From the NCBI GenBank assembly GCA_945919465.1, contig CAMEJG010000004.1, forward strand, positions 23,327 through 87,326: a stretch of DNA of 64,000 bases, in the 5' to 3' direction. This document shows, piece by piece, positions 2,618 to 42,231 of this stretch. The notes below the pieces were generated by a model. That model saw only the letters and a program-made list of their open reading frames with translations, made no database searches and had not been told where the DNA came from. Each line of letters begins with the position of its first letter. Position 1 is the first letter of the stretch. A program made the position numbers and the translations under genes. The DNA comes from an uncultured Anaeroplasma sp. (GTDB lineage: Bacteria > Bacillota_I > Bacilli_A > Acholeplasmatales > Anaeroplasmataceae).

Positions 2618-2649
2618 TGAAAAAGGCCTTCAACTAGAAGGCATTTTTC
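2618..2649. terminator. Bidirectional terminator between convergent genes
   Basis: GCCTTC-AACTA-GAAGGC (2626-2642) flanked by an A tract and a T tract; the stop codon of the minus-strand CDS lies in the loop. Confidence 0.75.
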
Positions 2650-3938
2650 AATAACATATTTAAAACGAATATTAGTATTATATTTATTGGATATAATACA
2701 ATGCTATACATGAATGTAGGAATTATTCCTATGATATTTTTAATTTTTTTAAATATTTCAAATTCAGGCTTAACAGTCTGATTTTTATTTTTATAATAGA
2801 TATTTTTATTAATATAATAAATATTAAATATAGTTTTATATAATCCATTTAATTCTTTATTTTTAGCAATATTTATTCCTTCAATAATTATTCTAAATGG
2901 ATATACAATAAATGTATATATTATTGATAATATAGAAAATAATATTGATACTATAATAACTAATATCGCTTGCAAAATGAATTTTAATACTTTATATATT
3001 ATTTTCATAAGCTTAATTAACTTATTGAATAACCATTTAATACCTAAATAGATACATTTAAATATATAATAGAATAATTTATAAATAGGCTTTAAGATAA
3101 ATTTATAAAATTTAATAAAAATCCATTTAATAATAAACCAAATTTTACTAAATAACCACTTAATACCTAAATAGATATATTTAAATATATAATAGAATAA
3201 TTTATAAATAGGCTTTAAGATAAATTTATAAAATTTAATAAAAATCCATTTAATAATAAACCAAATTTTACTAAATAACCACTTAATACCTAAATAGATA
3301 TATTTAAATATATAATAGAATAATTTATAAATAGGCTTTAAGATAAATTTATAAAATTTAATAAAAATCCATTTAATAATAAACCAAATTTTACTAAATA
3401 ACCATTCAATGCCTAAATAGATATATTTAAATATGTAATAGAATAATTTATAAATAGGCTTTAAGATGAATTTATAAAATTTAATAAAAATCCATTTAAT
3501 AATAAACCAAATTTTACTAAATAACCATTTAATAATAAACCAAATTTTACCAAATAACCATTTAATGCCTAAATAGATATATTTAAATATATAATAGAAA
3601 AATTTATAAATAGGCTTTAAGATTAATTTATAAAATAAAATAAATAATTTTTTTATTAATCTAAGAGGAGGCCTTATTACATATTTATAAATGATTTTGG
3701 ATATAAAAACTATTAAACTTCCTAAGGGTTTTACAAGCTTATTATATAAAAATATAATAGGTTTAATAATTATATATAAAAAGAAAAGCTTTATTATCTT
3801 CCAAATGAAAAGGATAAATGCTATTAATATATTAATTATAGGTTTAATAATTTTATTGAATATCGTTTTAAATAATGATTTTATATAAGAAAAGATTATT
3901 TTAAATATATCCTTTATTGACAAAATGAATTTTTTCAT
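2634..3938 (-). CDS. Repetitive hydrophobic/cationic aromatic-rich protein of unknown function
   Basis: 434-aa ORF with tandem 41-aa units (FYKFILKPIYKLFYYIFKYIYLGIKWLFSKIWFIIKWIFIK) directly after the GHKL kinase; no recognised domain. Confidence 0.7.
   Translation of the reverse strand: MKKFILSIKDIFKIIFSYIKSLFKTIFNKIIKPIINILIAFILFIWKIIKLFFLYIIIKPIIFLYNKLVKPLGSLIVFISKIIYKYVIRPPLRLIKKLFILFYKLILKPIYKFFYYIFKYIYLGIKWLFGKIWFIIKWLFSKIWFIIKWIFIKFYKFILKPIYKLFYYIFKYIYLGIEWLFSKIWFIIKWIFIKFYKFILKPIYKLFYYIFKYIYLGIKWLFSKIWFIIKWIFIKFYKFILKPIYKLFYYIFKYIYLGIKWLFSKIWFIIKWIFIKFYKFILKPIYKLFYYIFKCIYLGIKWLFNKLIKLMKIIYKVLKFILQAILVIIVSILFSILSIIYTFIVYPFRIIIEGINIAKNKELNGLYKTIFNIYYINKNIYYKNKNQTVKPEFEIFKKIKNIIGIIPTFMYSIVLYPINIILIFVLNMLLKNAF
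3040..3625 (-). repeat. Tandem 123-bp coding repeat with one 33-bp internal duplication
   Basis: 'ataggc' landmark at 3085, 3208, 3331, 3454, 3610: spacings 123, 123, 123, 156 (=123+33); near-identical 33-bp units at 3498-3530 and 3531-3563. Confidence 0.95.
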
Positions 3939-3950
3939 AATTCAACCTTA

Positions 3951-5246
3951 CTAAAATAATATTTTTATTGTGAAAGTTTCATCATTAATATCATAAGATA
4001 ATAGAAGTTTATTTTCTTCTGCAATTTTACGAATAGAAGAGGTACCTATACCATGACCAACTTCACTATTTGTGGGCGATCCATTTTCATCATATGAAAT
4101 ATTACCATCAAAGGTATTAGTTATTTTAAGGGCAAGTCTATTATCATTATTTAAAAATGTGAGATTTATTGTTCGATCAATAGTCATTTTTAATACTGCA
4201 TTGTATGCATTTTCTAAACAATTAGATAATAATATTGCAATCTTATAATTACTAATGTGAATAGCACTTTCTATATCATTTATTTTGATTTTTAGATTAA
4301 TATTATTTTCTTCACATTTTTTTGCATAATAATCAATTACTGAATTAATTATTGGGTCTTTACAATACTGCAATGTTGTATTATCCTCAATTATAGAAAT
4401 ATAATTATTTATAAAATCAATAGCTTCATCAAGCTTATTTGCTTTAATTAATGAATTTGTAGCAGTAAGAATATGCTTAATATCGTGTCGTATTATTTTT
4501 AATTCTTCATCTTTTTGCTCTCTAATATCATTCGCAACTTCGATTCTTCTACAATGTTGTTCTATAACATTATTATCAAATGATTGAATCATTATGCTTT
4601 TAAAATTTCTAAATATTAAGGAGAAAAACATTAAAGAAAATGTGTATGCAGAAATAATTGCAAAGGCAAACATATCTAATCTTAAAAGACCACTTGAGGT
4701 TATTTCTGAAATCATACTTCTATATAGACTAATTATTATAAAGATTATTAATGAATATGCACCAAATACTGGCAAATAATTTGGAGTATATTTTTCGATA
4801 TCATTATGAAGCTTTTTATAAAATAATCTCAAATATATTCCAATTAATATGAATAGAATAAAATATATAGCATATTCTATTATTTGATTATTGTATCTAC
4901 TACATAAAATATTTTTTACAACAAAAATTAAATATATATTAACATATATGTTCGTTGTAGCTACTGATAATGATATAAAGTGCAATTTACCCATTATTTG
5001 CATAAAAATACATTGAGGTGTTAATAATGTTAATATAAAGAATAAATTCATATTAAGATATTGTCCTAAAAAATAATATAAGAAATGATTAACAGCTAAT
5101 AATACACACATAAATATTACTGTGATTATTATTGATTTTATTAATTTGTGCTTATATTCTATTACTAATACTAATGCAATCATTGAAAATATTGCAAATA
5201 GCATAATGGGCAGTATCTTAATAAAAACATCAAACATTCTATTCAC
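3951..5246 (-). CDS. GHKL-domain sensor histidine kinase (AgrC-like)
   Basis: Multiple N-terminal TM segments, IIRHDIKHIL H-box, NCLENAYNAV N-box, GHGIGTSSIRKIAE G-box. Confidence 0.85.
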   Translation of the reverse strand: MNRMFDVFIKILPIMLFAIFSMIALVLVIEYKHKLIKSIIITVIFMCVLLAVNHFLYYFLGQYLNMNLFFILTLLTPQCIFMQIMGKLHFISLSVATTNIYVNIYLIFVVKNILCSRYNNQIIEYAIYFILFILIGIYLRLFYKKLHNDIEKYTPNYLPVFGAYSLIIFIIISLYRSMISEITSSGLLRLDMFAFAIISAYTFSLMFFSLIFRNFKSIMIQSFDNNVIEQHCRRIEVANDIREQKDEELKIIRHDIKHILTATNSLIKANKLDEAIDFINNYISIIEDNTTLQYCKDPIINSVIDYYAKKCEENNINLKIKINDIESAIHISNYKIAILLSNCLENAYNAVLKMTIDRTINLTFLNNDNRLALKITNTFDGNISYDENGSPTNSEVGHGIGTSSIRKIAEENKLLLSYDINDETFTIKILF

Positions 5247-5970
5247 CTAGAAGGTAATTAGCATATACCTTCTTAACATTTGCAAAGTATTTTTTTGATA
5301 TAGGAATAATATCATTATTTTTCATTACAAATGAAATCTCTGTTATACCTTTAATATAATTCATATTAACTATAAATGCAGAATGACAATTTAAAAAATT
5401 ATAATTATTATAATCAAAAGGAATAGAAGTTGAAAACTTAGTTCTTATAGAAACAGATCTAACAACCTCATTATTTGTCATATGATATAAAATTCTTCTT
5501 TCATTTGATTCAATATACATTATTTCATTAATATCAATTGTAACAAAATCTAATACATCATTTTTAACTGAAAATGTTGATTTTGCTTTAATATTTAAAT
5601 GTTCTATTAATCTATTTAGGCATAAACTCATTTTTTCCCTATCTAATGGCTTTACTAAATAATCAAATGCATGAACCTTGAAGGCATCAAGGGCATATTC
5701 TTTACTAGTTGTAGTAAAAATAATAGGAGCTTTTATATGCATCTGTCTAATTAGTTCAGCAAGCTCAATACCATTTTGCTTCATAATTATATCTAAAAAT
5801 ATAACATCAACCTCATTATTTTTAATATATTTTAGATTACTAACTAGTTCATTAGAACCAATATATTTTCTAATATTTACTTTTATGTTATTTTTCTTTG
5901 AATAATCACTAATTAGTTTAGAAGTGTTATCTAATTCTTTCTTTTCATCATCACATACTATAATGTTCAT
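5239..5970 (-). CDS. LytTR-family response regulator (AgrA-like)
   Basis: IIVCDDE, VIFLDIIM receiver motifs plus C-terminal LytTR; start at 5970 preferred because AAGGTGG precedes that ATG (ORF track starts at 5994). Confidence 0.85.
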   Translation of the reverse strand: MNIIVCDDEKKELDNTSKLISDYSKKNNIKVNIRKYIGSNELVSNLKYIKNNEVDVIFLDIIMKQNGIELAELIRQMHIKAPIIFTTTSKEYALDAFKVHAFDYLVKPLDREKMSLCLNRLIEHLNIKAKSTFSVKNDVLDFVTIDINEIMYIESNERRILYHMTNNEVVRSVSIRTKFSTSIPFDYNNYNFLNCHSAFIVNMNYIKGITEISFVMKNNDIIPISKKYFANVKKVYANYLLGE

Positions 5971-6388
5971 AAATACCACCTTCTTTATGTACATTTATAC
6001 CATAAAATATTTATAAATTCAATAAATTGAAATTTATTATTAATAAATGTGAATTTTTTATATAAAATAATTATTATAAATTTAATATATAAGATAAATG
6101 TAGTGATATTTTATCATTGTTAACTTTAATATATTAATTAACTATTATATCCTTTTATCAGGAGATTTAATTATGATAAAAATTGAGGTTTTGTAAAAAA
6201 TGATATTAAAATAGTATTTTTTTTATTATGATTATTAATTCCTTTATTGTTTATAATGGAATTTTACGGTTCTCATATTATTTATATATTTTTTTGAAAT
6301 TATATGAATTTATTTAAAAAATACTATGAAAATTTGATGAATTATTATATAATGAAAACATAGAAATTCGATTTGTGAGGTAAATATA

Positions 6389-7839: not shown

Positions 7840-8637
7840 ATGAGCTTTGGTGAAAAATTATCAAAATTAAGAAAAGAGAATAATTATACTCAAGAACAAC
7901 TAGCCGATGTATTAAATGTTTCAAGACAATCTGTTAGTAAGTGGGAAAGTGATTTAGCTTATCCTGAAACTGAAAAGCTTATAAAAATAAGTGAGCTTTT
8001 TAATTCGTCATTAGATTATTTAATGAAAGATACTAATGAAAATGATACTAGTAAAAATGATACAAATAATATTAGATTATGTAATATCTTTAATCTAAAT
8101 ATTAAGGAAAGAAAAAGTGAAAAAATGATATTAGGATTACCTTTATATCATATTGGAAAAAATGCTAAAGGATTCTTCGCAATTGGTATTAATGCAAAAG
8201 GTGTAATTTCTATTGGCTTATTATCAAGAGGAATAATTTCCTTAGGATTATTATCCTTAGGAGTTATTTCATTAGGTATAATGTCATTAGGATTATTAGC
8301 ATTAGGTGTTTTGGTTTTAGGCTTGATTTCTTGTGGTTGTATTTCAGTAGGATTTTTAGCTATTGGTGCTATTTCTTTAGGAATTATTTCTATTGGAGGA
8401 ATATCAGTAGGAGATTTTGCAGTTGGGGGTTTTGCTATCGGAAAATATTTTGCTTATGGTGATACTGCTAATGCAATGGTTACTATAGGAATAACTGATT
8501 CTTATGGTGATGTAGTTTCTGTATATGATAAGTTATCAATAAATGATGCTATAAGTGTAAAAAATGCATTAGATCAGGTAGTACCTAGTTATTTTAGTTG
8601 GATAAAGGATATTATAAAATCATGTATTAAAGCTTAG
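7840..8637 (+). CDS. XRE-family HTH regulator fused to long glycine-pentad repeat domain
   Basis: HTH_3 (LRKENNYTQEQLADVLNVSRQSVSKWESDLAYPE) then uninterrupted G-x-x-[SA]-[LIV]-like pentads. Confidence 0.85.
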   Translation: MSFGEKLSKLRKENNYTQEQLADVLNVSRQSVSKWESDLAYPETEKLIKISELFNSSLDYLMKDTNENDTSKNDTNNIRLCNIFNLNIKERKSEKMILGLPLYHIGKNAKGFFAIGINAKGVISIGLLSRGIISLGLLSLGVISLGIMSLGLLALGVLVLGLISCGCISVGFLAIGAISLGIISIGGISVGDFAVGGFAIGKYFAYGDTANAMVTIGITDSYGDVVSVYDKLSINDAISVKNALDQVVPSYFSWIKDIIKSCIKA

Positions 8638-42073: not shown

Positions 42074-42178
42074 TAAATTAACAAGATGCGAAAACTAATA
42101 AATACTTGAATAAAAAATATTGTTTGTTTTATTTGATGAATTTTTAGATTAACAATAACCCAACATTAAATAAAAGTA

Positions 42179-42231
42179 ACAATGCTATTGTAAAGGCAAC
42201 AATACTATTGTAATGGTAACAATACTATTGT
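42179..42231 (+). repeat. Three 13-bp inverted repeats ACAAT(G/A)CTATTGT at exact 20-bp spacing
   Basis: Copies at 42179-42191, 42199-42211 and 42219-42231. Confidence 0.9.

Follow-up and report, generated by a model that had tools for sequence, protein, structure and literature searches.

The window analysed in this study comprises 64,000 nucleotides of contig CAMEJG010000004.1 from an uncultured Anaeroplasma sp. and carries on its minus strand (2634..3938) an ORF for an unnamed protein of 434 aa, which is built of repeats, has the pattern of a long amphipathic helix and matches no family. Directly upstream of this helix gene, behind a gap of 12 bp, lies the gene of a GHKL-domain sensor histidine kinase (3951..5246, minus strand; PF14501, 7e-14), which overlaps by 8 bp with the gene of a response regulator containing a LytTR DNA-binding domain (5239..5994, minus strand; PF00072, PF04397). 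The common strand, the 12-bp gap and the overlapping genes suggest that all three form an operon. In the congeners G026 and G021 the helix gene is missing beside the paired genes of kinase (35-36% identical) and regulator, and it was therefore either added to the operon or lost from it. The two-component pair is tied to the helix gene in the window genome only; among the relatives described below, an ABC-F ATPase gene precedes the helix gene in G043 and G048, and feoB lies beside it in G149, G153 and G151.

For the window protein no match was obtained in Pfam, NCBIfam, PHROGs, PADLOC, the PDB sequences or plasmids, and no homologue of known function was found. As no Pfam family was reported at E<=1, the protein does not belong to the perilipin family by sequence. 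Phage-borne relatives were not seen either, as neither a PHROGs family nor, in a search of IMG/VR with the alignment of the short-type relatives, any related protein was obtained, and no description of the family was found in the open literature. The protein consists of 16% Lys, 25% Ile, 13% Phe and 10% Tyr with almost no acidic residues (net charge +68), and hydrophobic and aromatic residues make up 71% of the first 300 positions. The GC content of the gene is 15.1%, compared to 26.8% for the window, and since AT-rich DNA favours such residues, the composition alone is no proof.

With this composition the Lys-, Trp- and aromatic-rich helices could be taken for an array of membrane-active peptides, that is for a bacteriocin-like or lytic toxin under the control of a quorum-type two-component system. 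The residue make-up is like that of leaderless bacteriocins, for example aureocin A53, and the LytTR/GHKL pair is located upstream. However, the protein is 434 aa long with a C-terminal hydrophobic pair, there is no bacteriocin, PADLOC or PHROGs match, and beside the relatives' genes neither a two-component system nor an immunity-like gene is prominent; we therefore regard a toxin as very unlikely.

The repeats were first recognized at the DNA level. The landmark ATAGGC is found in the window at 3085, 3208, 3331, 3454 and 3610, and the spacing of 123, 123, 123 and 156 bp given in the preliminary description is exactly right. Tandem Repeats Finder reports an array with a period of 123 at 3028-3534 (4.1 copies, 97% match, score 965) and a second one with a period of 33 at 3476-3566, and the repeat array is far above chance expectation. 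The 123-bp repeats had been called exact; the tandem array is real, but exactness applies to one neighbouring pair only, adjacent units differing by 2, 0 and 5 mismatches. In the next 123-bp register (3397-3519 versus 3520-3642) there are 58 mismatches, which are due to the 33-bp insertion. The proposed near-identical duplicate of 33 bp (3498-3530 versus 3531-3563) could be verified, with one base different, as could the coding nature of the repeats, the whole array being in frame within the minus-strand ORF.

At the protein level (all coordinates on the minus strand) repeat unit 1 (3465..3620, residues 107-158) comprises 52 aa, which equals 41 + 11. It contains the 11-aa duplication IWFIIKWLFSK / IWFIIKWIFIK (3480..3545, residues 132-142 and 143-153), which is the 33-bp duplication in another register. 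The 41-aa unit LKPIYKLFYYIFKYIYLGIKWLFSKIWFIIKWIFIKFYKFI occupies units 2 (3342..3464, residues 159-199), 3 (3219..3341, residues 200-240) and 4 (3096..3218, residues 241-281), and a partial unit 5 follows (3027..3095, residues 282-304). Units 3 and 4 are identical in DNA, codon for codon; unit 2 differs from this pair by two synonymous codons and one non-synonymous codon.

A DNA-level tandem repeat is absent from the helix gene in all relatives' loci that were scanned, and the window array is thus of recent origin. Together with the two DNA-identical units this supports the earlier suggestion of a recent expansion or homogenisation. The genome is a draft of 89 contigs, which makes the count of identical units uncertain, and the copy number in such an assembly may be too low. 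The contigs of four relatives (G153, G149, G159 and G058; loci L020, L021, L046 and L022, respectively) stop inside the helix gene, which is the usual behaviour of repetitive genes in short-read assemblies; the two of these truncated pieces that were scanned show no repeat at the DNA level.

Two further repeats of other kinds were noticed in the window. An HTH protein is encoded at 7840-8637 on the plus strand, the C-terminal half of which consists of hydrophobic five-residue repeats (..GIISLGLLSLGVISLGIMSLG..; Tandem Repeats Finder 8206-8412), so that a pentapeptide-like repeat adjoins an Xre-type domain. A 20-bp tandem repeat (42178-42231; 2.7 copies, 91% match) lies just upstream of the gene for a sugar ABC transporter binding protein.

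The region with the pattern of an amphipathic helix extends over 2985..3935 (minus strand), that is residues ~2-318, and its phase is steadiest at residues 56-290, where the drift stays within ~35 deg. The hydrophobic periodicity of residues 1-330 is 96.5 deg per residue or ~3.73 residues per turn (z 14.9 versus shuffles). The same test gives z values of 11.2, 17.0, 15.9 and 16.1 for the diverged relatives G032, G043, G058 and G051, respectively, and the periods across the proteins are 3.67-3.75 residues per turn. In residues 56-300 all charge is confined to one face; the widest charge-free arc measures 204 deg, compared to a maximum of 90 in shuffles and to 165-213 deg in four relatives, and on the helical wheel of residues 56-318 five of the 12 sectors of 30 deg are without a charged residue. 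To allow for the AT-rich composition, the window protein was compared with all ORFs of >=200 aa in the window: of these 41 its 200-residue hydrophobic moment is the highest and exceeds the others by 8.6 SD. With 3.73 residues in each turn, the 41-aa unit makes 11.0 turns and the 11-aa unit 2.95. As both are near-whole turns, a change in copy number keeps the hydrophobic face in register. Besides the reading frame, which had been noticed before, both repeat lengths thus preserve the helical phase, which had been missed.

Relatives were sought in whole genomes and in GTDB contigs, and every hit lies within the order of the window, the Acholeplasmatales. A GTDB scan with the window protein alone found nothing, and with a four-row alignment it returned only three already known relatives. 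The family is sparse and comprises two types, a short one in the Anaeroplasmataceae, to which the window protein belongs, and a long one in two other families of the Acholeplasmatales. Within the window genus the distribution is patchy, since only one of the 28 genomes searched, the window genome itself, carries the gene.

Besides the window protein the short type includes an intact protein of 470 aa in another genus (G032), two proteins truncated by contig ends (G149 and G153) and an 84-aa remnant (G151). Its members agree in the N-terminal end, in the helix and in a conserved piece at the C-terminus, and the intact relative has both ends and the architecture in common with the window protein. 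The C-terminal segment YPFR / IF.QIKN / YP.N, which follows the helix, aligns in the window protein, G032, G149 and G153 and is present as a remnant in G151. The ORF of this remnant is located next to feoB (L031:6012-6266) and keeps the IFIQIKN / FYPVN end with the repeats gone, which amounts to a natural deletion of the helix.

The long type comprises G043 (1006 aa), G048 (888), G051 (1102), G069 (841), G070 (793), G050 (790) and the partial G058 and G159. It adds ~450 aa at the C-terminus with a weak resemblance to aBig_2 (PF20578; best E 0.095, below the Pfam cut-off). This domain is absent from the window protein, which ends after its second hydrophobic segment. G069 has, within a few kb of the full-length gene, an additional stretch of 46 residues (C1:853353-853493) that duplicates the C-terminal end of the long type. 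Two hits turned out to be spurious: the first hit in G050 (L006) is a permease, and the one in G006 (L055) runs antisense within a threonine-synthase-like ORF. Through the helix the two types match with a BLAST value of 2e-17, while a reversed-sequence control reaches no better than 3e-4. Their C-terminal parts do not align, so that common ancestry is probable and unproven; homology of the two hydrophobic segments between the types found no statistical support. The architecture is the same in all eight members checked, from both types: after an amphipathic N-part come two hydrophobic segments without charge, at a distance of 52-73 residues from each other. The helix length of the family is variable. 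The expectation of a length-variable protein is thus supported between species, the N-part before the first segment measuring 229-541 aa in the long type (remainder 525-572 aa) and the protein at the feoB-side locus measuring >=216 aa in G153 versus 84 aa in G151.

The low GC content and the occurrence in a single genome of the genus would also suit a compositional artefact or a decaying gene, in which drift at 15% GC to Phe, Tyr, Ile, Asn and Lys codons and slippage of repeats had produced a functionless ORF. Such a gene is hard to reconcile with a charge segregation and a phase that exceed both the composition-preserving shuffles and the 40 other window ORFs, or with the relative in another genus that is still intact at both ends and in its architecture. 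We consider this explanation highly improbable.

C-terminal to the repeats are two uncharged hydrophobic segments, which are candidate membrane anchors, one of residues 320-348 (2895..2981, minus strand) and one of residues 401-430 (2649..2738, minus strand). They form charge-free runs of 29 and 30 aa, compared to a maximum of 10 aa within residues 56-318. The loop between them is Lys-rich as well, and their topology is therefore ambiguous. The share of hydrophobic and aromatic residues in the first 300 positions would also be compatible with a polytopic integral membrane protein such as a channel or transporter, the repeats being short transmembrane helices with snorkelling lysines and the prolines possibly marking turns. 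However, the repeat region lacks any uncharged hydrophobic stretch of transmembrane length as found in polytopic transporters and channels, its longest uncharged run of 10 aa contrasting with the C-terminal segments, and separate transmembrane helices connected by loops would not need a phase that is fixed over more than 230 residues. A polytopic protein is in our opinion unlikely.

From an input of four sequences (the window protein and three relatives) AlphaFold2 predicts an essentially continuous helix for the window protein, residues 2-236 and 242-359, with a pLDDT of 85-88 over most repeats and a pTM of 0.41. The break at 237-241, inside a repeat that is otherwise identical, is probably arbitrary. 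The model of the diverged G032 is nearly all helix as well, at low confidence (mean pLDDT 57). A Foldseek search of the model against the PDB gave a single, non-significant match, ApoB100 (E=6).

Prolines within one continuous helix are unusual, and the repeat region could be made up of several helices. In nine proteins the proline-to-proline spacings are 11, 18, 19, 26, 30, 37, 41, 48, 52, 82 and others; the lengths vary and the phase is kept. The spacings fall preferentially on multiples of 3.70-3.72 residues, with an R of 0.62 that none of 2000 random sets reached. Relative to the hydrophobic moment the prolines are concentrated on one flank at -72 deg (R=0.79), 33 of the 49 falling in one 45-degree bin, and control prolines from other window proteins (R=0.12, n=91) prefer no flank. 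As many prolines descend from one repeat, these statistics overstate independence.

Right-handed coiled coils show periodicities of 11/3 and 15/4, and the 3.67-3.75 residues per turn observed here fit such hendecad and pentadecad coils. The helix might thus self-assemble into a filament or bundle instead of lying in lipid, and the AlphaFold2 monomer models are compatible with oligomers. Against this speaks the hydrophobic arc of near 200 deg, which is far wider than a two- or three-stranded core, next to a polar face rich in Trp, Tyr and Phe, and also the presence of membrane-like segments at the C-terminus. A coiled coil or fibre appears improbable to us.

Helices on the membrane surface are recognized by a lysine stripe that is bordered by Trp and Tyr, in combination with a broad hydrophobic face. 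The reading that we favour, and hold to be somewhat more probable than improbable, is that of a cationic membrane scaffold whose helix lies in the membrane plane, whose length is set by the repeats and which ends in a C-terminal pair of hydrophobic anchors. An amphipathic alpha-helix of ~315 residues, which at 1.5 A per residue would extend over roughly 47 nm when straight, would immerse its hydrophobic face in the bilayer, with the Lys-rich stripe and the Trp and Tyr residues at the headgroups. Given the strong positive charge, the cytoplasmic leaflet would be the most likely side. The two C-terminal segments would anchor the end of the helix. Tandem duplication would lengthen it by near-whole turns (11 for 41 aa, 3 for 11 aa) without rotating the membrane-facing side. 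With the prolines on one flank their kinks may add up and bend the helix in one direction, so that the protein might act as a membrane scaffold or belt tuned in length by the number of repeats. Its gene may be co-expressed with the LytTR/GHKL two-component system.

Penicillin-binding transpeptidase genes were detected in 21 of the 56 genomes of the family and in six of the 28 of the window genus, one of the six being the window genome. All carriers of the short type possess them and all tested carriers of the long type do not, which weakens the idea of a scaffold specific to wall-less cells. A search for MreB yielded only ORFs of the size of DnaK (about 617 aa), which presumably are DnaK and are uninformative with respect to the cytoskeleton.

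We tentatively go one step further, to a proposal that we regard as rather doubtful: the family might represent a new class of bacterial membrane-shaping proteins, with an in-plane helix of tens of nm that is bent one way by prolines and whose reach and arc are tuned by phase-preserving gain and loss of repeats. Other giant amphipathic helices built of repeats have been described in eukaryotic lipid-droplet proteins. An unannotated bacterial family that follows a similar logic with very different chemistry, and whose repeats respect the helical phase in addition to the reading frame, would provide a clean natural experiment on the lengthening and curving of membrane helices, in an order to which wall-less bacteria belong. 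The resulting rule would be that permitted indels are multiples of ~3.7 residues.

Among known systems, reticulon- and caveolin-type membrane-shaping proteins contain an amphipathic helix in combination with hydrophobic segments that resemble hairpins. The window protein resembles them in this combination and differs in the order and sizes of the elements and in sequence. The atrophied bacterial Ig domain aBig_2 (PF20578) is weakly similar to the C-terminal end of the long type only and has no counterpart in the window protein. Alpha-synuclein, CCT-alpha and the apolipoproteins are comparable in that 11-residue repeats form a lipid-surface helix of ~3.67 residues per turn; however, their helices are much shorter or far less hydrophobic, and no homology to them was detected. 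The closest analogue appears to be perilipin 4 (Plin4), which covers lipid droplets with a giant 3-11 helix made up of 29 tandem 33-mers and in which longer helices bind better (PMC5889406). In Plin4 (PMC5889406), and by prediction also in the window protein, near-identical tandem repeats make up a very long amphipathic helix, and no insertion breaks its phase. No sequence relation between the two was found, and the likeness would be one of shared principle, not of membership or homology. The predicted geometry of the window helix, at 96.5 deg per residue with units of 41 and 11 aa, is similar to that of Plin4, whose 33-mer equals 3 x 11 residues, but the length of the main unit and the residues are unlike. 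Plin4 is a weakly hydrophobic coat of eukaryotic lipid droplets with few bulky residues; the window protein, in contrast, is bacterial, strongly hydrophobic, aromatic and Lys-rich, with regularly placed prolines and two terminal hydrophobic segments.
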